Shown: positions 22,767 through 37,179 of the stretch, piece by piece | How positions within the stretch are numbered: the stretch's first letter is position 1 | Layout: each line of letters starts with the position of its first letter | Assembly (NCBI RefSeq): GCF_900638555.1 | Contig: NZ_LR134525.1 | Span: 992,001 to 1,056,000 of the forward strand | DNA from: Neisseria meningitidis | GTDB lineage: Bacteria; Pseudomonadota; Gammaproteobacteria; Burkholderiales; Neisseriaceae | Direction: 5' to 3' | DNA: 64,000 bases | The notes under the pieces: generated by a model | Told to the model about the DNA's origin: nothing | What the model saw: the letters and a program-made list of their open reading frames with translations, nothing else | Databases searched by the model: none | Program-made: the position numbers and the translations under genes

Positions 22767-25043
22767 ATGGCACAAACTACACTCAAACCCATTGTTTTAT
22801 CAATTCTTTTAATCAACACACCCCTCCTCGCCCAAGCGCATGAAACTGAGCAATCGGTGGGCTTGGAAACGGTTACCGTCGTCGGCAAAAGCCGTCCGCG
22901 CGCCACATCCGGGCTGCTGCACACTTCGACCGCCTCCGACAAAATCATCAGCGGCGACACCTTGCGACAAAAAGCCGTCAACTTGGGCGATGCTTTGGAC
23001 GGCGTGCCGGGCATTCACGCCTCGCAATACGGCGGCGGCGCGTCCGCTCCCGTTATTCGCGGTCAAACAGGCAGGCGGATTAAAGTGTTGAACCATCACG
23101 GCGAAACAGGCGATATGGCGGATTTTTCGCCCGATCACGCCATTATGGTAGATACCGCCTTGTCGCAACAGGTCGAAATCCTGCGCGGGCCGGTTACGCT
23201 CTTGTACAGCTCGGGCAATGTGGCGGGGCTGGTCGATGTTGCCGATGGCAAAATCCCCGAAAAAATGCCTGAAAACGGCGTATCGGGCGAACTCGGATTG
23301 CGTTTGAGCAGCGGCAATCTGGAAAAACTCACGTCCGGCGGCATCAATATCGGTTTGGGCAAAAACTTTGTATTGCACACGGAAGGGCTGTACCGCAAAT
23401 CGGGGGATTACGCCGTACCGCGTTACCGCAATCTGAAACGCCTGCCCGACAGCCACGCCGATTCGCAAACGGGCAGCATCGGGCTGTCTTGGGTTGGCGA
23501 AAAAGGTTTTATCGGCGTAGCGTACAGCGACCGTCGCGACCAATATGGTCTGCCTGCCCACAGCCACGAATACGATGATTGCCACGCCGACATCATCTGG
23601 CAAAAGAGCTTGATTAACAAACGCTATTTACAGCTTTATCCGCACTTGTTGACCGAAGAAGACGTTGATTACGACAATCCGGGCTTGAGCTGCGGCTTCC
23701 ACGACGACGATGATGCACACGCACACACCCACAACGGCAGACCGTGGATAGACCTGCGCAACAAACGCTACGAACTCCGCGCCGAATGGAAGCAGCCGCT
23801 CCCCGGTTTTGAAGCCCTGCGCGTACATCTGAACCGCAACGACTACCACCACGACGAAAAAGCAGGCGATGCAGTAGAAAACTTTTTTAACAACCAAACG
23901 CAAAACGCCCGTATCGAGTTGCGCCACCAACCTATAGGCCGTCTGAAAGGCAGTTGGGGCGTGCAATATTTACAACAAAAATCCAGTGCTTTATCTGCCA
24001 CATCCGAAGCGGTCAAACAACCGATGCTGCTTGACAATAAAGTGCAACATTACAGCTTTTTTGGTGTAGAACAGGCAAACTGGGACAACTTCACGCTTGA
24101 AGGCGGCGTACGCGTGGAAAAACAAAAAGCCTCCATCCAGTACGACAAAGCATTGATTGATCGGGAAAACTACTACAACCAGCCCCTGCCCGACCTCGGC
24201 GCACACCGCCAAACCGCCCGCTCGTTCGCACTTTCGGGCAACTGGTATTTCACGCCACAACACAAACTCAGCCTGACCGCCTCCCATCAGGAACGCCTGC
24301 CGTCAACGCAAGAGCTGTACGCACACGGCAAACACGTTGCCACCAACACTTTTGAAGTCGGCAACAAACACCTCAACAAAGAGCGTTCCAACAACATCGA
24401 ACTCGCGCTGGGCTACGAAGGCGACCGCTGGCAATACAATCTGGCACTCTACCGCAACCGCTTCGGCAACTACATTTACGCCCAAACCTTAAACGACGGA
24501 CGCGGCCCCAAATCCATCGAAGACGACAGCGAAATGAAGCTCGTGCGCTACAACCAATCCGGTGCCGACTTCTACGGCGCGGAAGGCGAAATCTACTTCA
24601 AACCGACACTGCGCTACCGCATCGGCGTTTCCGGCGACTATGTACGAGGCCGTCTGAAAAACCTGCCATCCCTACCCGGTAGGGAAGATGCCTACGGCAA
24701 CCGTCCTTTCATCGCACAGGACGACCAAAACGCCCCTCGCGTTCCGGCTGCGCGCCTCGGCGTCCACCTGAAAGCCTCGCTGACCGACCGTATCGATGCC
24801 AACTTGGACTACTACCGCGTGTTCGCCCAAAACAAACTCGCCCGCTACGAAACGCGCACGCCCGGACACCATATGCTCAACGTCGGTGCAAACTACCGCC
24901 GCAATACGCGCTATGGCGAGTGGAATTGGTACGTCAAAGCCGACAACCTGCTCAACCAATCCGTTTACGCCCACAGCAGCTTCCTCTCTGATACGCCGCA
25001 AATGGGCCGCAGCTTTACCGGCGGCGTGAACGTGAAGTTTTAA
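22767..25043 (+). CDS. znuD: TonB-dependent outer-membrane zinc receptor ZnuD
   Basis: ZnuD imports free zinc (and has been linked to haem) across the outer membrane with TonB energy. The 758-residue protein starts at MAQTTLKPIVLSILLINTPL, with a signal peptide ending near LAQA. The plug domain follows (ETVTVVGKSRPRATSG as TonB box region; DALDGVPGIHASQYGGGASA; VEILRGPVTLLYSSGNVAGL). Then come barrel strands up to the terminal Phe. A zinc-binding surface loop is visible near residues 270-330: CHADIIW, a second Cys, and an Asp/His run (HDDDDAHAHTH). A start six codons upstream is possible. Confidence 0.95.
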   Translation: MAQTTLKPIVLSILLINTPLLAQAHETEQSVGLETVTVVGKSRPRATSGLLHTSTASDKIISGDTLRQKAVNLGDALDGVPGIHASQYGGGASAPVIRGQTGRRIKVLNHHGETGDMADFSPDHAIMVDTALSQQVEILRGPVTLLYSSGNVAGLVDVADGKIPEKMPENGVSGELGLRLSSGNLEKLTSGGINIGLGKNFVLHTEGLYRKSGDYAVPRYRNLKRLPDSHADSQTGSIGLSWVGEKGFIGVAYSDRRDQYGLPAHSHEYDDCHADIIWQKSLINKRYLQLYPHLLTEEDVDYDNPGLSCGFHDDDDAHAHTHNGRPWIDLRNKRYELRAEWKQPLPGFEALRVHLNRNDYHHDEKAGDAVENFFNNQTQNARIELRHQPIGRLKGSWGVQYLQQKSSALSATSEAVKQPMLLDNKVQHYSFFGVEQANWDNFTLEGGVRVEKQKASIQYDKALIDRENYYNQPLPDLGAHRQTARSFALSGNWYFTPQHKLSLTASHQERLPSTQELYAHGKHVATNTFEVGNKHLNKERSNNIELALGYEGDRWQYNLALYRNRFGNYIYAQTLNDGRGPKSIEDDSEMKLVRYNQSGADFYGAEGEIYFKPTLRYRIGVSGDYVRGRLKNLPSLPGREDAYGNRPFIAQDDQNAPRVPAARLGVHLKASLTDRIDANLDYYRVFAQNKLARYETRTPGHHMLNVGANYRRNTRYGEWNWYVKADNLLNQSVYAHSSFLSDTPQMGRSFTGGVNVKF

Positions 25044-25059
25044 AATCGGACAGGCAAAC

Positions 25060-25097
25060 AAAAAAGGTTTTCAGACGGCATTCTGAAAACCTTTTTT
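25060..25097. terminator. Terminator behind znuD
   Basis: AAAAAAGGTTTTCAGA and TCTGAAAACCTTTTTT (16-bp perfect stem) surround CGGCAT; it includes part of a DUS and ends in T-runs. Confidence 0.88.
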
Positions 25098-25237
25098 CTT
25101 TTTAATCAATTTGTTAGGAAATATGGCAAAGACAAAGAACAAACCACTATGCCATCATTCCCATTTTCTTTGTTTCATCATTCTTGCTTTCACGCCGTCA
25201 TTCTCGCAAAAGCAGAAAAATCAAAGGCAGAAACCCA

Positions 25238-25927
25238 TCATTCCCGCGCAGGCGAGAATCCAATTCATTCGGTTTCAGCCGTTTCCGATAAATCGCCTTA
25301 GCATTTGGGTTCTAGATTCCCACTTTCGTGGGAATGACGGCGTAAAGGTTTCTGTTTTTTAAGTTTTAGGTAACTAATGAGTCGTCATTCCCGCACAGGC
25401 GGGAATCCAATTCGTTCGGTTTCAGCCGTTTCCGATAAATCGCCTTAGCATTTGGGTTCTAGATTCCCACTTTCATGGGAATGACGCGGAAAGGTTTCTG
25501 TTTTTTTTTAAGTTTTAGGTAACTAATGTGCCGTCATTCCCGCGCAGGCGGGAATCCAATTCGTTCGGTTTCAGCCGTTTCCGATAAATCGCCTTAGCAT
25601 TTGGGTTCTAGATTCCCACTTTCGTGGGAATGAGGCGGAAAGGTTTCTGTTTTTTTTTAAGTTTTAGGTAACTAATGTGCCGTCATTCCCGCGCAGGCGG
25701 GAATCCAATTCGTTCGGTTTCAGCCGTTTCCGATAAATCACTGTAACGTTAAGTTCCCGGATTCCCACTTTCGTGGGAATGACGGCGTAAAGGTTTCCGT
25801 TTTTTAAGTTTTAGGTAACTAATGAGTTGTCATTCCCGCGCAGGCGGGAATCCAATTCGTTCGGTTTCAGCCGTTTCCGATAAATCGCTGTAACGTTAAG
25901 TTCCCGGATTCCCATTTTCGTGAACAT
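25238..25927. repeat. Tandem dRS3/RS array (NIME), five units of about 148 bp
   Basis: dRS3 sites of the first type (ATTCCCGCGCAGGCGGGAAT and variants) start at 25240, 25387, 25536, 25685 and 25832, giving spacings of 147, 149, 149 and 147. Each unit also has a second dRS3 (ATTCCCACTTTCGTGGGAAT) at 25316, 25463, 25612 and 25761, and shared spacers (gtttcagccgtttccgataa; taagttttaggtaactaatg). The fifth unit ends in a broken half-site near 25920. Nothing else is seen in the 975-bp stretch between znuD and psd; an 83-codon frame at 25111 is repeat-derived. Confidence 0.93.
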
Positions 25928-26018
25928 AACGGTGTGAACATTAGCAAAAATTCAAAAAACCAAACTTCCTCATTCGTGTGAATGATGATACTGATATTTT
26001 CTATTTCAGTTCGCAAAA

Positions 26019-26816
26019 TTAATCTTTCAACACATCTTGCACAGCCGCCTGAATCTTAGCCGCCACTGCCTCGATTTGCCGTTGTTCGGCAGATGGGTTT
26101 GCCGCTGTTTCAACCGGAGCAGTTTGTAAAGCAGGCTCAGATTCAGGCTCGGATTCGATTTGCGGCGCAGTCAGCGGCAAACGCGCCAATACAGTGCTGA
26201 CACCGTTTACTTTATCGCCAATCGCCACTTGCGCCTGCGCATCGACAGGCAGATACATATCCACGCGCGAGCCAAAACGGATAAAGCCATAGCGTTCGCC
26301 GCGAGACAGTTTCGCACCTGCTTGGGTGTAGCACAAAATACGGCGCGCCACCAAACCGGCCACTTGAACAAAAGTAATTTCACGACCGGAAGCCGTAGTC
26401 GCCAACACCGCATTACGTTCGTTTTCCGTGCTGGCTTTGTCCAAATCCGCATTCACGAATTTGCCTTTGTTATAGACCACTTTCGTTACCGTACAATCGG
26501 CAGGCGATTTTTGCGAATGCACGTTGAACACGTTCATAAAAATACTGATTTTCAAAGCATCGACATCACGATACGGATCGCGTGCGCGCTCGACCACCAC
26601 GATACGGCCGTCAACCGGACTCAACACTGCTTCAGGATTTTGCGGAATCTCACGCGCAGGGTCGCGGAAAAACTGCAGGGCAAATACGGTAAACACCCAA
26701 AACGGCAAAGACCACCAGCCGCAACACATCGACACCAGCAGGCTCAAAGCCAAACCGCCGCCAATAATCGGCCAGCCCTCACGGGCGATAATCGGGTGGG
26801 GGTAAAGACGGTTCAT
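26019..26816 (-). CDS. psd: Phosphatidylserine decarboxylase proenzyme
   Basis: Psd converts phosphatidylserine to phosphatidylethanolamine, the main membrane lipid. The 265-residue precursor begins [20 protein letters not shown] with two membrane segments ([20 protein letters not shown] and beyond). It has [27 protein letters not shown] and the self-cleavage region RFGSRVDM, where Ser becomes the pyruvoyl group. The last 50 residues ([16 protein letters not shown] and on) form a low-complexity Glu/Pro/Ala extension that the short Psd class normally lacks. Confidence 0.93.
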
Positions 26817-26887
26817 TTGTCATCCTTTTGTTCAAGCGGGTTAAAATTGCCGACATTATAGCGGAATCTGCCGTACTCCGCCGACAA

Positions 26888-26917
26888 ATGCCGTCTGAAC
26901 GCGGCTTCAGACGGCAT
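26888..26917. other. Inverted DUS between the divergent genes psd and uvrA
   Basis: ATGCCGTCTGAA (26888-26899) and TTCAGACGGCAT (26906-26917) form a 12-bp stem in the shared promoter region, where no terminator is needed for either flanking gene. Confidence 0.8.
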
Positions 26918-26970
26918 CCGAGAAAGTGCTACAATACCAGTTTTCCTTTATTTTTCAGGCGGCATCCATT

Positions 26971-29823
26971 ATGTGCAACCATCATCCCCAACATTCGCAC
27001 GACAACGACACCATCCGCATACGCGGCGCGCGCACGCATAATTTGAAAAACGTCGATTTGGACATTCCGCGCCACAAGCTCGTAGTGGTAACAGGCTTAT
27101 CGGGCAGCGGCAAATCATCGCTGGCGTTCGACACGCTGTATGCCGAAGGACAGCGGCGTTATGTCGAGAGCCTGTCCGCCTATGCGCGGCAGTTTTTGCA
27201 GATGATGGACAAACCCGATGTCGATTTGATCGAGGGTCTGTCGCCCGCGATTTCCATCGAGCAGAAATCCACCAGCCACAATCCGCGTTCCACCGTCGGC
27301 ACGGTTACGGAAATCCACGATTACCTGCGCCTTTTGTACGCACGCGTCGGCACGCCGTATTGCCCCGAACACAATCTGCCGCTATCCAGCCAAACCGTAT
27401 CTCAGATGGTCGATGCCGTATTAAAACTGCCGGAAGACACGCGCGTGATGATTCTTGCGCCGGCAGTTCGTGAGCGTAAGGGCGAGTTTGTCGACTTCTT
27501 TGCTGACTTGCAGGCGCAAGGCTTTGCCCGTGTGCGCGTGGACGGCGAGGTCTATCAGCTTGACGAAGTGCCGAAGCTGGAAAAAAACATCAAACACAAT
27601 ATCGACGTGGTCATCGACCGCGTGAAAGTGAAGGCGAACATCAAGCAGCGGCTGGCGGAAAGTTTTGAAACCGCGCTGCGCCACGGCAACGAGCGCGCGC
27701 TGGCGATGGAAATGGACAGCGGCGAAGAGCATTGGTTTTCCGCGCGTTTCGCCTGCCCCGTATGTTCGTACAGCCTGCCCGAATTGGAGCCGCGCCTCTT
27801 TTCGTTCAACAACCCGATGGGCTCCTGCCCGACTTGCGACGGCTTGGGCAACACCAATTTCTTCGACTCCGAAAAAGTGGTCGCGCATCCCGAATTGTCG
27901 CTGGCTTCGGGCGCGATTGACGGCTGGGACAAGCGCAACCAGTTCTATTTCCAAATGATTCAGTCGCTGGCGCGGCATTACGGTTTCGACGTGCAGGCTG
28001 CTTGGGAAACCCTACCTGCAAAAATCAAAAAAGTCGTGTTGCACGGCTCGGGCAAGGAAGTCATTGATTTCACTTACCTGTCCGAACGCGGCACCACCTT
28101 CAACCGCAGCCACGCCTTCGAAGGCATCATCCCCAATCTCGAACGCCGCTACCGCGAAACCGACAGCGAAACCGTGCGCGAAAAACTGCGCGAATACCAA
28201 AACCACCGCGCCTGCCCGAGCTGCGGCGGCGCACGTTTGCGCAAAGAAGCCCGCTACGTTTACGTCAGCGGTGAGCCGTTGCACGAAGTTTCCGCCTGGC
28301 CGCTCACCAAAACCCACCAATTCTTTGAAACACTGGATTTAGACGGCAACAAAAAACAAATCGCCGAAAAAATCCTCAAAGAAATCACCGAACGCCTCGG
28401 CTTCCTGATTAACGTCGGGCTGGATTACCTGAATTTAAGCCGCTCCGCCGAAACCCTCTCCGGCGGCGAAGCCCAGCGCATCCGCCTCGCCAGCCAAATC
28501 GGCAGCGGCCTGACCGGCGTGATGTATGTACTGGACGAACCCTCCATCGGCCTGCACCAGCGTGACAATGACCGCCTGCTGGCCACCCTCAAACGACTGC
28601 GCGATTTGGGCAACAGCGTGATTGTGGTCGAACACGACGAAGACGCCATCCGCGAAGCCGATTTCGTGGTCGATATGGGCCCCGGCGCAGGCGAACACGG
28701 CGGCAACGTATTGATTGCCGACACGCCCGAAAACGTCGCCAAATGTGAAAACTCCGTTACCGGACAATACCTCAGCGGCAAAAAATCCATTGCCGTGCCG
28801 TCTGAACGCACGCCCGTCAATCCCGGCCGAATGCTCGTCCTCAAAGGCGCGCGCGGCAACAACCTCAAAAACGTTACCCTCGAACTGCCGCTCGGTTTAA
28901 TTACCTGCATCACCGGCGTATCCGGCAGCGGCAAGTCCACCCTGATTAACGACACCCTCGCCAAAATCACCGCCCGCGAACTCAACCGCGCCCAAGAAGA
29001 ACCCGCCCCATACGACGACATCCGCGGCCTCGAACACCTCGACAAAGTCATCAACGTCGACCAATCCCCCATCGGTCGCACCCCGCGCTCCAACCCCGCC
29101 ACCTACACCGGCCTGTTCACCCCCATCCGCGAACTCTTCGCCGGCGTACCCCTCTCGCGCGAACGCGGCTACAACGTCGGCAGATTCTCCTTCAACGTCA
29201 AAGGCGGCCGCTGCGAAGCCTGCCAAGGCGACGGCGTGATTAAAGTCGAAATGCACTTCCTGCCCGACGTGTACGTCCCCTGCGAAGTCTGCCACGGCAA
29301 ACGCTACAACCGCGAAACCCTCGAAATCCAATACAAAGGCAAAAACATCAGTCAAGTCCTCGACATGGCCGTCGAAGAAGCCCGCGAATTCTTCGACGCC
29401 GTCCCCACCGTATCGCGCAAACTGCAAACCTTGATGGACGTAGGCTTAGGCTACATCCGTCTCGGCCAATCCGCCACCACCCTCTCCGGCGGCGAAGCCC
29501 AGCGCGTCAAACTCGCCTTGGAACTCTCCAAACGCGACACCGGCAGAACGCTCTACATCCTCGACGAACCCACCACCGGCCTACACTTCGCCGACATCGC
29601 CCTGCTGCTGGAAGTCATAGACCGTCTGAAAGGCAAAGGCAACTCGATAGTGATTATCGAGCATAATCTGGATGTGATTAAAACCGCCGATTGGATTGTG
29701 GACTTAGGGCCAGAAGGCGGCGACGGCGGAGGGAGGATTATTGCGGTGGGGACGCCTGAAGAAGTGGCGGAAGAGAAAAGTAGTTATACTGGAAAGTATT
29801 TAAGTATGATTCTGAAAGGCTGA
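26971..29823 (+). CDS. uvrA: Excinuclease ABC subunit A
   Basis: UvrA is the damage-sensing ATPase of nucleotide excision repair. The 950-residue protein starts at ATG 26971 ([20 protein letters not shown]). Walker A of the first ATPase is [15 protein letters not shown] (about residue 42). Zinc-finger cysteines lie in CPVCSYS...CPTC and CPSCGGARL, the first signature is [20 protein letters not shown], the second Walker A is [15 protein letters not shown], and the last zinc site is [11 protein letters not shown]. The upstream ATG at 26926 lies in the DUS leader and was rejected. The last 60 codons shift to AT-rich usage, next to the restriction-modification genes. Confidence 0.96.
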
Positions 29824-29825
29824 AA

Positions 29826-30683
29826 ATGAAAAAATTTGAAATACAGTTTAATAAAAACTCTACTGTTATTCTTGGAGATTGTTTAGAAGTTCTAAAAACA
29901 TTACCAAGTTCAAGTGTAGATTTAATTTTTGCAGATCCTCCTTACGGAATTGGTAAAGATTTTGGGAATAATAAAGACTTTTTTGCAGATGCTTATCAAT
30001 ATTTAGATTGGTGTGCCTCGTGGATTGATGAATGTATGAGAGTTTTAAAAGACAACGGCACAATGTATTTAATGAGTTCTGTACAATATATGCCTATTTT
30101 AGATAGGTATGTAGATGAAAAATATTTCATTATAAATAGAATTGTTTGGTCTTACGATTCATCAGGTGTTCAAGCTAAAAATAAATTTGGCTCTACCTAC
30201 GAGCCAATTCTAATGTTTACACATCACAAAAACAGCAAATATACATTTAATTCCGAAGATATTTTAATAGAGGCAAAGACAGGAGCTGAAAGAAAACTGA
30301 TAGATTATCGAAAAACTCCGCCGCAGCCCTATAATGCAAAAAAGATACCTAGTAATGTATGGGAATTTAATAGAGTTCGTTACAAAATGGATGAATACGA
30401 AAATCACCCTACACAAAAACCCGAGAAGTTATTAGAGAGAATTATTTTAGCTTCAAGCAATAAAGGGGATACCATATTAGATCCATTTAGCGGCTCATTT
30501 ACTACTTCTTCTGTCGCAGTACGACTAAAAAGGAAGGCAATAGGTATAGAAATTAATCCAGATTATTTTAAGATTGGTATTAGAAGAACTCATATTTCTA
30601 ATGAGTATAATGGGGAATTTTTAACTAAAAACAAGATGAGAAAAACTAGCAATAAATCAAAAAAAGATCATAGTAAAACTTAA
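29826..30683 (+). CDS. Type II DNA adenine methyltransferase, YhdJ-like (beta class)
   Basis: The 285-residue enzyme has the beta-class order: catalytic motif IV DPPYG near residue 37, then the target-recognition region, then the AdoMet motif ILDPFSGSFTTSSVA near residue 225. Long stretches (RIVWSYDSSGVQAK, EPILMF, EAKTGAERKLIDYRK, VWEFNRVRYKMDEYENHPTQ) are almost the same as remembered E. coli YhdJ, which methylates ATGCAT. That specificity is an inference. It starts two bases after the uvrA stop and uses uvrA's end as its ribosome site (AAAGG), so it may be translationally coupled. Strongly AT-rich, hence probably acquired. Confidence 0.88.
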   Translation: MKKFEIQFNKNSTVILGDCLEVLKTLPSSSVDLIFADPPYGIGKDFGNNKDFFADAYQYLDWCASWIDECMRVLKDNGTMYLMSSVQYMPILDRYVDEKYFIINRIVWSYDSSGVQAKNKFGSTYEPILMFTHHKNSKYTFNSEDILIEAKTGAERKLIDYRKTPPQPYNAKKIPSNVWEFNRVRYKMDEYENHPTQKPEKLLERIILASSNKGDTILDPFSGSFTTSSVAVRLKRKAIGIEINPDYFKIGIRRTHISNEYNGEFLTKNKMRKTSNKSKKDHSKT

Positions 30684-30701
30684 ATTTAATAGAGGTTTAA
30701 A

Positions 30702-31772
30702 ATGAAAGAATTTGTTCAAGAAATTTTAATACAGTATTACCCTGATAATTACTCTTATATCTACAACAAAAGCCCATTATTACAGTATTTGGATTCAAAA
30801 ATGGGGGCAATCTATGGGAATTCTAAGACCCGTAGAAGTTTGGCTAATATATATGCCATATATTCCTTACTGCATTTCTATGCTGAAAGTAAATTTATCA
30901 ATAAACCAGAAGAATACAAAAAGTTCTACGGTTTTGAATATAACAAATTGTTTTATTTCTATCGGTCATTATATGGAGGAGATAAATTACAGAATCACGC
31001 TCTAAATAGTCGTGTAAATGGAGAGTTTAAAAATAAGTTTAACGAAGAATTAATAATTATCAACAATGGAAAATATTTAATTAATATTAAATATTTATAT
31101 GTTGATAATTTTGACTTGTGCCAAGTTTCTATTGATATTATAGAAAAATATATTTATCTATTAAAGTGTAAAGATAGTTTTTTAGTCGAAACAATTGAAA
31201 ATTTATTTGAATCTCATGATGTCAGTGAAAAGAAAAGACAAATTTCAATTTTATTAAATGAAAAATCAGAAGCAAGAATTTTTGAAATTATTTCGTATGC
31301 GATTTTAAAGAATCATTACAAAAATATCTCTGTATTCTTTGAATATTCTAGAGATAGTTTACAAGAAGAGTTTTTAAAATTATATAAAACTGGTAGAACA
31401 AATGCTAACGATGGTGGAATTGATTTTGTAATGAAGCCATTGGGTAGATTCTTCCAGGTAACGGAAGTAAATAATTTTGATAAGTATTTGTTGGATATAG
31501 ATAAAGTATTGCACTTTCCTATTACATTTGTTGTTAAAACAGAAACATCAAAGGATCAAGTTAATTCGGAATTAATCGAATATATTAATAATAAATCAAA
31601 TGGTATGGAGGTAATTATTAATAGATATAAAAATGCGATTGAAGAGATTATAACTATTAACGAGTTAAATGATTGGTTAAATGAATTGTGCAATTGCGAT
31701 ATAGATAAATTACTTAAAGATATCGATTTATACTATAAGCTTGAGTTAAATCTATTAGCTAATGATGAATAA
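30702..31772 (+). CDS. Probable cognate restriction endonuclease
   Basis: The 356-residue protein follows the methyltransferase by 18 bases (ribosome site AGAGG) and shares its very AT-rich composition. The N-terminal 200 residues are helical and unfamiliar. The C-terminal part has a PD-(D/E)xK-like core: NANDGGIDFVMKPLGRFFQV followed by TEVN (about residues 236-258), with Asp, Gln/Glu positions as in diverged nucleases. Pairing with an orphan-free methyltransferase makes a type II enzyme likely. The family is not recognised and the recognition site is inferred only from the methylase. Confidence 0.68.
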   Translation: MKEFVQEILIQYYPDNYSYIYNKSPLLQYLDSKMGAIYGNSKTRRSLANIYAIYSLLHFYAESKFINKPEEYKKFYGFEYNKLFYFYRSLYGGDKLQNHALNSRVNGEFKNKFNEELIIINNGKYLINIKYLYVDNFDLCQVSIDIIEKYIYLLKCKDSFLVETIENLFESHDVSEKKRQISILLNEKSEARIFEIISYAILKNHYKNISVFFEYSRDSLQEEFLKLYKTGRTNANDGGIDFVMKPLGRFFQVTEVNNFDKYLLDIDKVLHFPITFVVKTETSKDQVNSELIEYINNKSNGMEVIINRYKNAIEEIITINELNDWLNELCNCDIDKLLKDIDLYYKLELNLLANDE

Positions 31773-31803
31773 TTAAGCAAGCCGTAGCCTGCATATCCAA
31801 CCG

Positions 31804-31893
31804 ACCGCGTGCGTGGCTGCGCCACACACCCTACCTGTGAATTATGCGGAACTTCAAAACCAACGTGTAGGGTATATGCGGTACGCACGCGGT
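31804..31893. repeat. REP-like imperfect palindrome upstream of the RAYT remnant
   Basis: ACCGCGTGCGT (31804-31814) is repeated inverted as ACGCACGCGGT (31883-31893), with inner partly complementary acaccctac and gtagggta segments. Such structures accompany REP-associated tyrosine transposases. Otherwise 31773-32055 holds only scattered degenerate DUS motifs (tcagacgacc, cgtctgaaaa). Confidence 0.55.
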
Positions 31894-32055
31894 TGCTGCT
31901 TGATTGACGGTTTGCCGTTTCAACTTTTAACTGCGTTGAAGCTAGCGCTTTCAGACGACCTCTGATATCGTCTGAAAACCTCAACTTCAACAAAGTTAAA
32001 AACTTAAACAACAAATCATTCCTTCTCCAACATCCAAACCACAAACAAAAATCCT

Positions 32056-32575
32056 ATGGCGCGTTATCGCAGAAACTTCATTGCCGGCGGCACATTCTTT
32101 TTCACCGTCAAACTCGCCGATCCAAAATCACACCTGCTTGTCGAACGTATCGGCTTCGCGTGCGGCTTATATGGATGTGCAAAAACAATATTCCTTTGAA
32201 ACCGTCGCCGTATCCGTGCTGCCGAACCACATTCACGCCATTTGGACGCTGCCGCCCGATGATGCGGATTATTCCCTACTCCGGCGGCTGATTAAAACCA
32301 AATTCTCCGCACATTTCCCTCATGCCCAAAACCTGTCTGCAAGCAAACAGCGGCGGCACGAACGCGGTATTTGGCATCGGCGTTTTTACGAACACACCGT
32401 GCGCGATGAAACGGATTTGCGGCGTTGTGCAAACCATATCCGTTCCAATCCTATCAAACAAAAAATGTCGCGAGCCGAAACAGAAACCGGAACAATCCTG
32501 CAAAAAATAATATCAGTCTTTTCAAATGCGATACTTATCCATTCCCAGACTTCAAACAAGGCGTGTGCAACCTGA
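32056..32575 (+). pseudogene. REP-associated tyrosine transposase (RAYT), frameshifted
   Basis: ATG 32056 opens MARYRRNFIAGGTFFFTVKL, the typical RAYT N terminus, but the frame is lost near 32155. The continuation in another frame gives AYMDVQKQYSFETVAVSVLP, then NHIHAIW with the HUH histidines, and RRFYEHTVRDETDLRRCANH. After NPIK the sequence no longer matches and ends at 32575, so the C terminus is also decayed. RAYTs are single-copy Y1 transposases that move REP palindromes. Confidence 0.8.
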
Positions 32576-32680
32576 CTTACGGGTTTGCTCCTGTTTGACC
32601 GATAAATATTCTGACTGCCTCAAAGGGCAAAAAATAATGTGGGTATGTTGAGGCTGCCTCTTTTTGAAATGACAAACAAA

Positions 32681-32718
32681 ATGCCGTCTGAAACCCGATT
32701 TCCGGTTTCAGACGGCAT
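32681..32718. terminator. Inverted DUS terminator behind sucD
   Basis: ATGCCGTCTGAAACC (32681-32695) and GGTTTCAGACGGCAT (32704-32718) form a 15-bp stem 29 bases after the sucD stop, ending the TCA block. Confidence 0.88.
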
Positions 32719-32746
32719 TTGATGTTTAATCAGTTGTCAAACCTGA

Positions 32747-33637
32747 TTATGCCAAACCTTTTGCCTTCAACACTTCCAGCATCGTCGTGCCCAACTCGGC
32801 AGGGCTGCGGGTGTAAGCGATACCGGCTTTTTCGAAAGCGGCGAATTTTTCTTCGGCAGTACCTTTACCACCAGAGATAATCGCACCGGCGTGGCCCATA
32901 CGTTTGCCTTTAGGAGCGGTAACACCAGCAATGTAACCTACAACAGGTTTGGTTACGTTGGATTGGATGTATTCGGCTGCTTCTTCTTCCGCAGTACCGC
33001 CGATTTCACCAATCATGATGATGGCGTCAGTATCTGGGTCTTCTTGGAAGAGTTTCAGTGCATCGATTTGGTTCATACCAGGAATCGGGTCGCCGCCGAT
33101 ACCGATACAGGTTGATTGACCCAAGCCCAGTTTGGTGGTTTGTGCCACGGCTTCGTAAGTCAATGTACCAGAACGGGAAATGATGCCGATGCGGCCCGGA
33201 GTGTGGATGTGGCCCGGCATAATACCGATTTTGCACTCGCCCGGAGTAATCACGCCCGGGCAGTTAGGGCCGACCAAACGGGTACCGTTGCCGTTGGTTT
33301 CCAAATAACGTTTGGCTTTGAGCATGTCCAAAGTAGGTACGCCTTCGGTAATCACAACGACCAAGCCTACGCCTGAATCAACGGCTTCAACGATAGAATC
33401 CAACACAAACGGAGCGGGAACGTAAATTACGGATGCATCCGCGCCGGTTTCTTTAACAGCTTCTTTCATGGTGTTGAATACAGGCAGGTTCAGGTGGGTT
33501 TGACCGCCTTTGCCCGGGGTAACGCCGCCGACAACTTTAGTGCCGTAAGCCAGAGCTTGTTCGGAGTGGAAAGTACCGTTTTTACCGGTGAAACCTTGAA
33601 CCAATACTTTGGTGTCTTTATTAATCAATACGCTCAT
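32747..33637 (-). CDS. sucD: Succinate-CoA ligase, alpha subunit
   Basis: SucD with SucC converts succinyl-CoA to succinate with nucleotide triphosphate formation. The 296-residue subunit has the CoA-binding Rossmann fold ([20 protein letters not shown], residues 12-31) and [20 protein letters not shown]. The phosphorylated His lies in [20 protein letters not shown] near residue 247. It follows sucC by ten bases in the same operon and is the last gene of the block. Confidence 0.97.
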
Positions 33638-33647
33638 TCTTTTCTCC

Positions 33648-34814
33648 TTAGGCGTTTACGGCTGCAACAATTTTTCCGGCTGCGTCATTCAGGCCGTCTG
33701 CAGAAGTCAGTTTCAGGCCTGATTCGTTCAGGATTTTCGCGCCGAGTTCGGCGTTGTTACCTTCCAAACGAACAACGACAGGAACGTCGACGTTGATTTC
33801 TTTAACGGCTGCCACAATAGCTTCCGCAATCATGTCACAACGTACGATACCGCCGAAGATGTTGATCAATACGCCTTTAACGGATTTGTCTTCCAGAATC
33901 AGTTTGAACGCTTCAACCACGCGGTCTTTGGTAGCGCCGCCACCAACGTCCAAGAAGTTGGCAGGTTGGCCGCCTTTGAGTTTGATGATGTCCATAGTGG
34001 CCATCGCCAAACCGGCACCGTTAACCATACAGCCGATGTTGCCTTCCAGGGCAACATAGTTCAGGTCGAATTCAGAAGCTTTCAGCTCACGTTCGTTTTC
34101 TTGAGATTTGTCGCGCAATTCAGCGATTTTTGGCAGGCGGTAGAGCGCGTTGCTGTCGATACCGATTTTGCCGTCTACGCAAGCCAGTGCGCCGTTTTCG
34201 CGAACTGCCAATGGGTTTACTTCAAACAGTGCGAAGTCGTTGTCGACAAACGCTTTGTACGCGCCGGTCATCAGTTTGACGAACTCGTTGATTTGTTTGT
34301 CTTTCAAGCCCAGTTGGAACGCAACTTCGCGAGCTTGGCAAGGTTGCAGGCCAACCAGCGGATCAACGGTTACTTTGAAGATTTTTTCAGGAGTTTCGGC
34401 AGCAACTTTTTCGATTTCCACGCCGCCTTCGGTCGAAGCCATGAATGTAATGCGGCGGGTAGAACGGTCAACCACTGCGCCCAAGTACAGCTCGGTTTGA
34501 ACCGGATACATGTCTTCGCAAACCAAAACGCTGTTGACAGGTTGGCCGTTGGCATCCGTTTGGTAAGTTACCAAGTTGGTGCCAATCAGGCTTTCAGCCA
34601 CTTCTTTAGCTTCTTCGCGGCTTTTAACGACTTTTACGCCGCCCGCTTTACCGCGGCCGCCGGCGTGTACTTGTGCTTTGACAACAGCGAATTTGCCGCC
34701 CAATTTGTCGTAAGCTGCAGCGGCTTCTTCGCCGTTGTGTGCCAAAATACCGCCTTGTACGGGCAAACCGTAGCTAGCCAGCAGTTCTTTAGCCTGATAC
34801 TCGTGTAAATTCAT
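33648..34814 (-). CDS. sucC: Succinate-CoA ligase, beta subunit
   Basis: The 388-residue ATP-grasp subunit starts at ATG 34812-34814 ([20 protein letters not shown]) behind AAAGGAGAAATCC. The ATP-grasp domain (to about residue 240) includes [40 protein letters not shown] with metal ligands, and the C-terminal domain has [15 protein letters not shown] longer frame to 34859 lacks a ribosome site. Confidence 0.97.
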
Positions 34815-34912
34815 GGATTTCTCCTTTAGATTAGTGGAATGCCCCGAGTTTGCCTCCAAATGGCAAGCCCGTGCGTTTCAGACTACCTTTCGGCGGTCGG
34901 AAAATCGTCGTT

Positions 34913-35200
34913 TCACTTGCTGAAAGGCAACCACATCCGCGCCAGCAGATACATGGCTGCACCGCCTCCCCCGAGAATAAAAAAGACGATGCCTTTTTTA
35001 CGCGAATTCGGACAGAGCAGATAAACGGCAAGGCTGAAACTGATAAACAACAATGCCACGCGCCAAACCAATTCTTTATCTTTGAAACGGTTGAGCGTAT
35101 AAGTTTCGGTCATCATCACATACATCTGCCACAATGCGGCCATACACATGCTGATGATGCCCGCCGGTATAAAGAAAATACCGACTATTTCTTTGTTCAT
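34913..35200 (-). CDS. Small conserved-looking membrane protein
   Basis: The 95-residue protein (MNKEIVGIFFIPAGIISMCM) has three predicted membrane helices: about residues 6-28, 48-62 and 72-90, the last with FFILGGGGAAMYLLARM. It lies between lpd and sucC on the same strand. No family was recognised and nothing ties it to the TCA enzymes except position. Confidence 0.7.
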   Translation of the reverse strand: MNKEIVGIFFIPAGIISMCMAALWQMYVMMTETYTLNRFKDKELVWRVALLFISFSLAVYLLCPNSRKKGIVFFILGGGGAAMYLLARMWLPFSK

Positions 35201-35294
35201 AATGAATGTAAATGCTGTTTGTTTGTCTGACGGAATTATAAATCAGAAAACGAAGCTCTCGGAACATTCAATTTGTCGGAGGCCTTAATGTCTA

Positions 35295-36728
35295 TCAACC
35301 GTGCAAAGCGCGTTTGTCGGCCGCCAATGCAGCTTCGTGAACCACTTCGGACAAGGTTGGGTGGGCATGGATGATGCGGGCGATGTCTTCGCTGCTGGCA
35401 AAGAATTCGAGCGCAGTCACGCCTTCGGTAACCAATTCGCTGACAACCGGGCCAATCATGTGTACGCCCAAGATGCGGTCAGTTTTGGCATCTGCCAACA
35501 CTTTAACCGTACCTTTGGCTTTGCCCATGGCCAATGCGCGACCGTTTGCACCGAAACCTGAAGTACCTTTTTTGTACTCCACGCCTTCGGCTTTGAGCTG
35601 CTCTTCGGTTTTACCCACCCAAGCGATTTCAGGATCGGTGTAAATCACGAATGGTACGTTGTTGAAGTCGATATGCGGTTTTTGACCGGCAATGCGCTCA
35701 GCAACGGCAACGCCTTCGTCGCTGGCTTTGTGTGCCAACATCGGGCCGCGAACCACGTCGCCGATTGCCCATACGTTAGGCAGGTTGGTACGGCATTCGC
35801 CATCTACTTTGATAAAGCCGCGCTCGTCTTTTTCCAAGCCTACAGCTTCGGCGTTCAGGCCTTTGGTGTTTGGAATACGGCCGATAGCAACGATCAGTTT
35901 GTCGAATACTTCGGTTTTGGCTTCGCCGGCAGCAGTTTCGTAAGCAACGGAAACGCCTTCGCCTTCAGATTTGATGTCGCCGATTTTCACGCCCAATTCA
36001 ATGCTCAAGCCTTGCTCTTTGGTAAAGTATTTGAAGGCTTCTTTGGCGATTTGTTGGTCGGCGGCAGCCAGGAAGGTCGGCGCGGCTTCAAGAATGGTAA
36101 CTTCCGCACCCACGCGGTTCCATACGGAACCCATTTCCAAACCAATCACGCCGGAACCGATCACGCCGAGTTTGGTAGGTACTTCAGTCAGGTTCAATGC
36201 GCCTTCGTTGTCCAAAACGTTCACGTTGTCGATAGCGACTTGTGGCAGCGGACGCGGTACGGAACCGGTGGCTACGATGACGTGTTTGGCTTCGATAACG
36301 GTTTTCTCGCCTTTGTTATCGACTTCGATTTGGTAAGCATCGCCATTTTTACCGGCAAAGGAGGCAGTACCGAACAGGCTGGTTACTTTGTTTTTTTGGA
36401 ACAGGAATTTCACTCCGCCGGTCAGTTTGGTCACGATGGCATCTTTGCGCTCAATCATTTTGGCCGCGTCGAATTTTACGTCGCCGACAGTAATACCGTG
36501 TTCGGCAAAATCGTGTTGCGCAGCGTGGAAATGTTCGCTGGATTGCAACAGGGCTTTAGAAGGGATACAGCCTACGTTCAAGCAAGTACCGCCCAATGCA
36601 GGGGCATTGCCTGCTTTGTTAACGCCTGCGTCAACACAAGCGGTTTTGAAACCCAGTTGCGCGGCACGGATGGCGGCAACGTATCCGCCCGGGCCTGCAC
36701 CAATCACTACTACATCATATTGAGACAT
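35295..36728 (-). CDS. lpd: Dihydrolipoyl dehydrogenase (E3)
   Basis: E3 reoxidises dihydrolipoyl groups of 2-oxoglutarate dehydrogenase with NAD+. The 477-residue flavoprotein has the FAD motif [20 protein letters not shown], the redox disulfide [16 protein letters not shown] (about residue 46), the NAD motif [20 protein letters not shown] and the dimerisation His-Glu motif [13 protein letters not shown] near the C terminus. It lies downstream of sucB, which supports a role in the 2-oxoglutarate complex. Confidence 0.96.
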
Positions 36729-36825
36729 TGTGTCATCCTTTGCTTTTGGCAGTATCTCAAAATAAAAACGATACTTTTCGTTTCTTTTTTATTTTGAATG
36801 ACTGCGTTTTGATGGTTTTAAGAAA

Positions 36826-36882
36826 AGGCCGTCTGAAAGTCCATACCAGCCGATTCATTCGAATCAAATGTTTCAGACGGTC
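36826..36882. terminator. DUS-type inverted repeat between lpd and the small lipoprotein gene
   Basis: GGCCGTCTGAAA (about 36828-36839) and TTTCAGACGGTCT (36870-36882) form an 11-bp stem with a 30-base loop. A second hairpin, GGTAATCG (36949-36956) with CGATTACC (36972-36979), lies nearer the upstream gene. Confidence 0.55.
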
Positions 36883-36987
36883 TCAATCGTTTGTTGAGCC
36901 TATTGTAGCACGATACTACATTACGCTACATCTAACTAATATGAATCAGGTAATCGAGCAGTTTAAACGCCCGATTACCTTATTTAA

Positions 36988-37179
36988 TTACTGCTCATAT
37001 TTTTTGCAATAAGATTTTTTTGCCCGTACTTTGTCGCTCAACGCGGCACAGTTAGCCTTTTGTTGGGCTTCAAAATCCGCTTGTTTTTCAGCTTTTGATT
37101 TTTCTTGCACAATAATTACTTCTTTATCGCACGCAGTTAAAACAAAAAATGATAGGGTTATTAAAGCTGCCAATTTCAT
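36988..37179 (-). CDS. Small lipoprotein
   Basis: The 63-residue precursor MKLAALITLSFFVLTACDKE has a lipoprotein signal peptide with lipobox LTAC (Cys 17). The mature peptide of 47 residues is highly charged (QEKSKAEKQADFEAQQKANC) with two more Cys. It lies between sucB and lpd, but a strong terminator at 37199 separates it from sucB. Function unknown. Confidence 0.72.
   Translation of the reverse strand: MKLAALITLSFFVLTACDKEVIIVQEKSKAEKQADFEAQQKANCAALSDKVRAKKSYCKKYEQ

Follow-up and report, generated by a model that had tools for sequence, protein, structure and literature searches.

The DNA directly behind uvrA in Neisseria appears to be a genus-wide exchange slot, and the two AT-rich genes found there in one genome of Neisseria meningitidis, termed here M and R, are one of its occupants, a point missed by the preliminary description of this locus. 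With good, though not full, confidence, the pair can be regarded as a type II restriction–modification (R-M) cassette directed at ATGCAT and swapped within the slot by homologous recombination; the confidence is not higher because the check for integrases covers 31 of the 43 loci compared, and the sole shared cassette has no clear role. The window, i.e., the whole stretch of DNA analysed, comprises 64,000 nucleotides (positions 992001–1056000 of a genome represented by one contig of 2.19 Mb, G000). Coordinates below are those of the window, L-numbers denote loci, and the features of the locus and the recognised occupants of the slot in other genomes are collected in Table 1.

The reported location of two AT-rich genes two bases past the uvrA stop proved correct. 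The spacing is 2 bases between uvrA and M and 18 bases between M and R, the three genes are co-oriented, both cassette ORFs are intact, and the GC content drops from about 0.56–0.61 in the second half of uvrA to 0.23–0.33 across M and R. Of 2541 overlapping 1.2-kb windows taken from 804 kb of this genome, including the cassette, 27 have <36% GC. For uvrA, the listed ORF opens with a GTG at 26926, and its stop codon occupies 29821–29823; the true start may be situated 3′ of 26926. The 5.8 kb ending with uvrA display 93.8–93.9% identity to two records of N. gonorrhoeae. No tRNA genes are present at 25000–37000, and the promoter and terminator signals detected over 29700–32600 do not rise above those of shuffled sequences. 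Since the gap between uvrA and M is only 2 bases, M and R are probably read through from uvrA, the end of which may also supply the ribosome-binding site of M (putatively AAAGG at about 29814–29818, in the uvrA tail).

Table 1. Features of the uvrA locus in the window and occupants of the corresponding slot in other genomes (occupants named after PADLOC models)
Feature	Position or locus	Strand	Remarks
uvrA	26926..29823	+	ORF of 965 aa; fixed left flank of the slot
Variable uvrA tail	29734..29823	+	last ~30 codons, differing between genomes
M	29826..30683	+	ORF of 285 aa; YhdJ/M.EcoKII-family N6-adenine DNA methyltransferase; predicted target ATGC(m6A)T
R	30702..31772	+	ORF of 356 aa; PDLC03455-family type II restriction endonuclease; predicted cutter of unmethylated ATGCAT
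Right border block	31773..32055	.	no gene assigned; GTAG-plus-hairpin (REP-like) element
DNA-uptake-like 12-mer AGGTCGTCTGAA	31950..31961	-	right side of the cassette
RAYT-like gene	32056..32575	+	frame-broken; right flank in many relatives
AbiU	L078, L099, L107, L110, L114		PADLOC
AriA + AriB (PARIS pair)	L081		PADLOC
AAA ATPases matching AriA, Old, PtuA or HEC-02A models	L079, L090, L096, L103		PADLOC
ThsB-TIR + PDC-S60	L082, L092		PADLOC
PDC-S33 with RelA_SpoT domain	L080		PADLOC
PD-Lambda-5 A + B	L085		PADLOC
HEC-01 A + B	L100		PADLOC
HEC-06/GmrSD	L104		PADLOC
NsnA with HEPN gene	L105		PADLOC
SoFic	L109		PADLOC
PDC-S47 with Abi_alpha	L111		PADLOC
TIR-TM	L098		PADLOC
PDC-S15	L117		PADLOC
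Helicase model	L093		PADLOC
KwaA + partial KwaB (Kiwa pair)	L120, 1471-2961		PADLOC

The assignment of M to the YhdJ-type methyltransferases, made earlier from the letters alone, is confirmed by the curated YhdJ model NF008572 (444.4 bits; cut-off 292), along with a match to PF01555 (N6_N4_Mtase) at 7.8e-59 and the presence of the catalytic motifs DPPY and DPFSGS. E. coli YhdJ (M.EcoKII), a member of the same curated family, is 58.7% identical to M over 276 aa, the central block being nearly unbroken; the identity to two Helicobacter relatives amounts to 71%. In an alignment of nine sequences, from Helicobacter to E. coli, the central and C-terminal blocks are strongly conserved, including the stretch from YDSSGVQ to RVRY..DEYENHPTQKP. 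In the genus sample (46 genomes, one per species), M is private to this genome: the best M-like match elsewhere shows 36% identity (1e-24).

The target of the M–R pair is most likely ATGCAT, a prediction already present in the preliminary description and supported by the kinship of M with YhdJ. Overexpressed E. coli YhdJ is reported to methylate the second A of ATGCAT and to shield the DNA from NsiI (PMC4444293); methylated ATGCAT is reportedly absent from Salmonella yhdJ mutants (PMC9239280). M would, hence, methylate the second A of ATGCAT in the host DNA, and R would cut the site where it is unmodified, in phage or foreign DNA entering the cell. The hexamer is scarce in this genome, with 37 copies per 93.7 expected from a Markov estimate over 804 kb (ratio 0.40). 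The corresponding figures are 42/63.2 (0.66) for G036, 49/71.8 (0.68) for G024, and 78/83.5 (0.93) for G009 in samples of 400 kb each, two of these three relatives using another uptake dialect and not being the closest controls. The window itself contains 3 copies vs. 21.7 in dinucleotide shuffles. This rarity agrees with the predicted target and is suggestive only: the log-ratio of ATGCAT is just 1.5 sd below the mean (z −1.5), and five of the 64 palindromes surpass ATGCAT in depletion when this genome is set against the three relatives. These palindromes, depleted beyond ATGCAT in 804 kb of G000, are GACGTC, CCGCGG, AGCGCT, GGCGCC, and AGTACT, hinting at traces of other past or present restriction systems. 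Type II R-M systems with the target ATGCAT include NsiI of Neisseria sicca, EcoT22I, and AvaIII, all cutting ATGCA^T; R is likened to them by the predicted shared target and not by a comparison of sequences.

No match to R was obtained in Pfam and NCBIfam at E ≤1, and the PDB sequence search with R and its profile returned nothing meaningful apart from one chance match (E 1.6). At the same time, the PADLOC REase_II model PDLC03455 covers R almost at full length (residues 5–352; 4.3e-76). Because of this match and of the recurrent pairing with YhdJ-type methyltransferases, the R family cannot be considered new; judging by its profile, R belongs to a family already catalogued in PADLOC, and the earlier suggestion of an unfamiliar endonuclease family should be abandoned. 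The block TGRTNANDGGIDFV..P.GRFFQVTE is nearly invariant in 17 aligned sequences; within the family, GGID...QVTE is conserved, but the standard ExK of PD-(D/E)xK nucleases is lacking.

Relatives of R were found at 31 genomic loci (mostly in Clostridia-type records, three in Helicobacter) and in 11 plasmid records; the search of a phage collection with R gave zero matches, and that of viral contigs with the R profile revealed four relatives. At the 36 loci examined (the 31 genomic ones and five of the 11 plasmids), a YhdJ-like match is situated beside R in 34, the remaining two (L028 and L030) having an incomplete R. In L028, the R relative is matched only from residue 116 onward, and 7.3 kb of sequence contain no M-like match; perhaps this is a decayed system. 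The relatives on enterobacterial and Acetobacter plasmids show 33–36% identity to R, and the E. coli, Klebsiella, and Acetobacter plasmids examined carry a small HTH gene ahead of R. The R relative of the E. coli plasmid pEC22 (NC_025058; 33% identity) adjoins a gene annotated as yhdJ; in this plasmid, the two genes are convergent and accompanied by the small HTH gene, a possible controller, whereas the pair in the window is co-directional and has no HTH gene. Overall, the match of R to a type II endonuclease model, the adjacency of the two genes, and the 34/36 pairing indicate that M and R constitute a complete type II R-M gene pair, as had been proposed. R is present in one of the 46 genus genomes, and since the pair occurs only there, its long residence in this lineage is doubtful.

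The conserved stretch of M, preserved from Helicobacter to E. coli, and the under-representation of ATGCAT in this genome both speak against an R-M system with a different target, in which the recognition has drifted and the fold has been kept. Such drift would be compatible with the limited identity of M to E. coli YhdJ and of R to its plasmid-borne relatives, and is nevertheless unlikely. It is very improbable that M is a working regulator-type orphan methyltransferase next to an R that is inactive or otherwise employed. E. coli YhdJ is itself described as an orphan (PMC4444293), and R has no solved relative detectable by sequence; on the other hand, R is a full-length ORF retaining the invariant block of its family, and the two genes stay paired in distant bacteria. 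YhdJ of Salmonella is likewise an orphan. The annotated neighbours of yhdJ in E. coli MG1655 are fis and yhdU, whereas M adjoins an endonuclease gene.

The C-terminal part of uvrA was located in 43 of the 45 other genomes of the genus sample (it is missing from G031 and G033). The DNA behind uvrA differs in all 43 other loci read. The first 1.2 kb behind uvrA contain <33% GC in 27 of the 43 and <36% GC in 30; among 6321 overlapping control windows from G000, G036, G024, and G009, these thresholds are passed by 69 and 128 (~2%), respectively, with an uneven distribution between the genomes (G036 holds 48 of the 69). A co-directional ORF (80 aa or longer, GC <0.46, starting no further than 3.5 kb away) follows uvrA in 40 of the 43 loci, the median gap being 31.5 bases and 31 of the 40 ORFs starting within 80 bases of the stop; no ORF passes this filter in L106, L116, and L119. 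The 67 ORF products gathered behind uvrA, a few of them encoded on the reverse strand, form only 15 pairs matching at 1e-8. Different whole-gene cassettes between conserved flanks are, therefore, what the 43 other genomes present.

Beyond the genus, the family was found to comprise 11 other genera, 10 of which are represented by the 20 genomes read here. In the g2, g3, and g12 genomes, and in a single genome each of g8 (three read) and g9 (two read), an AT-rich co-directional ORF begins within 100 bases past the uvrA stop; in the other g9 genome, the DNA is AT-rich and the ORFs are reversed. Genes of ordinary composition follow uvrA in the six g10 and two g4 genomes, and no such AT-rich ORF is found at the start of the downstream DNA in g5 and g11. 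In the two g6 genomes, the AT richness extends over the entire stretch, which makes them uninformative. The slot proteins of three loci outside the genus (L221, L227, and L230) gave one marginal PADLOC match and two with none. The slot may, accordingly, be older than the genus in part of the family.

Many occupants of the slot are related to defence (Table 1). In a scan of 47 proteins from 37 loci, which included no control protein set and in which many AAA-ATPase matches are generic, 24 loci gave a PADLOC match at ≤1e-5 and 22 at ≤1e-20; outside the scan were L086, L089, L097, L106, L116, and L119. The L083 match is marginal (9e-6). In L120, the KwaB match spans only positions 142–305 of the 306 of the model, i.e., its second half, so this KwaB looks partial. 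The 13 loci with no PADLOC match are L084, L087, L088, L091, L094, L095, L101, L102, L108, L112, L113, L115, and L118; Pfam domains were recognised in L108 (NACHT/NB-ARC), L084 (HATPase), and L112 (DUF6685), and transposase-like pieces were noticed by eye in L118. Ordinary-looking host genes, also named by eye, adjoin uvrA in L097, L106, and L119, and no clear cargo is discernible in L086 and L116.

The slot in the N. gonorrhoeae record L219 harbours an Eco29kI-like R (1.1e-88) and a cytosine-methyltransferase-like protein (best 1e-23); because of the Eco29kI match, we infer that this pair is NgoAIII. In four gonococcal strains, NgoAIII is reportedly replaced by another gene (PMC6789123), which would represent a within-species swap at the uvrA slot if the identification of NgoAIII is right. 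L219 (NZ_CP119142.1) and NZ_CP119140.1 are filed as N. gonorrhoeae plasmids; since both records are 2.17 Mb long and contain uvrA, they look like mislabelled chromosomes.

On the left, the border is defined by the uvrA tail. A shift in base usage over the last 60 codons of uvrA, taken earlier for the recombination edge, does exist, the two final blocks of 30 codons having GC 0.42 and 0.52, but is genus-wide: it does not mark an insertion edge because the 43 relatives, with other downstream DNA, share the AT-rich end (means of 0.41 and 0.49). Neither is the edge situated 60 codons back. The identity to the 43 relatives, calculated per 30 bases, is 0.83–0.96 over 29404–29733 and collapses to 0.71, 0.67, and 0.50 only in the last ~30 codons; 16 of 20 BLAST alignments stop at 29798–29801.

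On the right, a match to the border block or to the RAYT-like stretch starts within 60 bp past the cargo stop in 17 of the 43 relatives, some part of the right-side sequence of the window (31773 onward) is found in 29, and 14 have no right-block match. No single conserved gene forms the right flank throughout the genomes, and the host gene beyond the border block varies. The gene at 32056–32575, which we take to be a REP-associated tyrosine transposase-like (RAYT) gene, is, judging by its start, also frame-broken in L083, L090, and L091 and looks intact in L080 and L084. The right border was also considered as a repeated 3′ mark of cassettes and rejected: its first 68 bases have a single copy in the 804 kb sampled here and none in 400 kb from each of three relatives, the slots of these relatives lying outside the samples. 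Second copies of other right-border parts are present slightly further on in L084, L085, and L088.

Uptake-like sequences flank the cassette, with a 10-mer at 28797 inside uvrA on the left and copies at 31950 and beyond on the right; the 12-mer at 31950 (AGGTCGTCTGAA) presumably represents an uptake-sequence dialect. Over the 804 kb, the DNA-uptake sequence ATGCCGTCTGAA occurs 578 times vs. 77 and 36 for the two other dialects counted; this prevalence and the identity of the uvrA region to N. gonorrhoeae place the genome near the gonococcus/meningococcus group of Neisseria.

Sharing bounded by the cassette was documented between two species. The L083 and L089 cassettes are 98–100% identical per 200 bases from +100 to +2300, the flanks showing 94–99.5% in uvrA on the left and 89–99% on the right except for one 70% bin. 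This cassette (44% GC) is of unclear function and not recognisably related to defence. Its 803-aa ORF is 99.4% identical between the two; the L083 copy lacks Pfam matches, and its methyltransferase match is no more than marginal.

As to the mode of movement, many integrase sites are situated near the 3′ ends of genes, and the left border does lie very close to this end of uvrA, as would be expected if the slot had arisen by site-specific integration of the genomic-island type and not by homologous recombination. This origin is quite improbable: no integrase family was detected by Pfam in M or R or among 40 cargo proteins from 31 of the 43 loci, no direct repeat of the uvrA end is present at the right border in the window (the uvrA end takes part in one repeat only, the other copy being at the start of R), and the border is fuzzy over ~30 codons. 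The notion of an integrase-borne island is, hence, not supported by the window genes, the 40 cargo proteins, and the repeats of the window. RAYT-like genes on the right side in many genomes, together with the GTAG-plus-hairpin element of the border block (z −2.05), which has the shape of the REPs associated with RAYTs (PMC3733652), would fit cassettes moved by the neighbouring transposase and REP-like hairpins. Still, the left side showed no such element, the RAYT-like gene of the window is frame-broken, and 14 of the 43 loci are devoid of any right-block match, making this mode very hard to credit. Under the preferred explanation, a swap by homologous recombination, uvrA on the left and, in many genomes, the border block on the right, often with the RAYT-like gene, would be kept, and the cassette between them would be exchanged as a unit without an integrase, most likely after natural transformation.

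This mode would be that of the minimal mobile elements of Neisseria, reportedly treated by Saunders and Snyder in 2002 and by Snyder in 2007. The concept of such slots is already published: a minimal mobile element is defined by alternative whole-gene cassettes that sit between conserved flanks and move by homologous recombination (PMC3082526, PMC3898611), with over 30 potential sites (PMC3898611) and cassettes that are mostly R-M (PMC4269198). Different whole-gene cassettes within conserved flanks are common to these elements and the uvrA slot, but most PADLOC-recognised occupants of the latter are non-R-M defence systems. A minimal mobile element is expected to lie between two conserved flanking genes and to vary between strains of a species; here, at one genome per species, uvrA is the fixed left flank and the right side is formed by the border block. 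NgoAIII of N. gonorrhoeae (target CCGCGG) presumably occupies the same slot, its enzymes and target being unrelated to those of M–R. In the parts of the literature available, no paper among the matches listed presents uvrA as a Neisseria defence slot; the 2007 site list lies outside this material.

A broader proposal, toward which we lean with little more than an even mind, is that the 3′ end of uvrA in Neisseria serves as an integrase-free “immune socket” at one place, where most species would keep a short co-directional AT-rich cassette read from uvrA and swapped whole between species. Accordingly, the occupants of L087, L088, L094, L095, and L113, which lack PADLOC matches as well as informative Pfam matches, would be undescribed anti-phage systems findable by position alone.

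As one more probable ATGCAT-type system, the M–R pair shows that the YhdJ group does not consist of orphan methyltransferases alone and also contributes a half to a recurrent R-M family. The slot, in its turn, samples phage-defence genes at one fixed coordinate across the species of a much-studied, naturally transformable genus. Hence, new defence systems could be sought simply by their position behind uvrA, and the possible movement of defence genes by transformation alone could be studied in a clear example.
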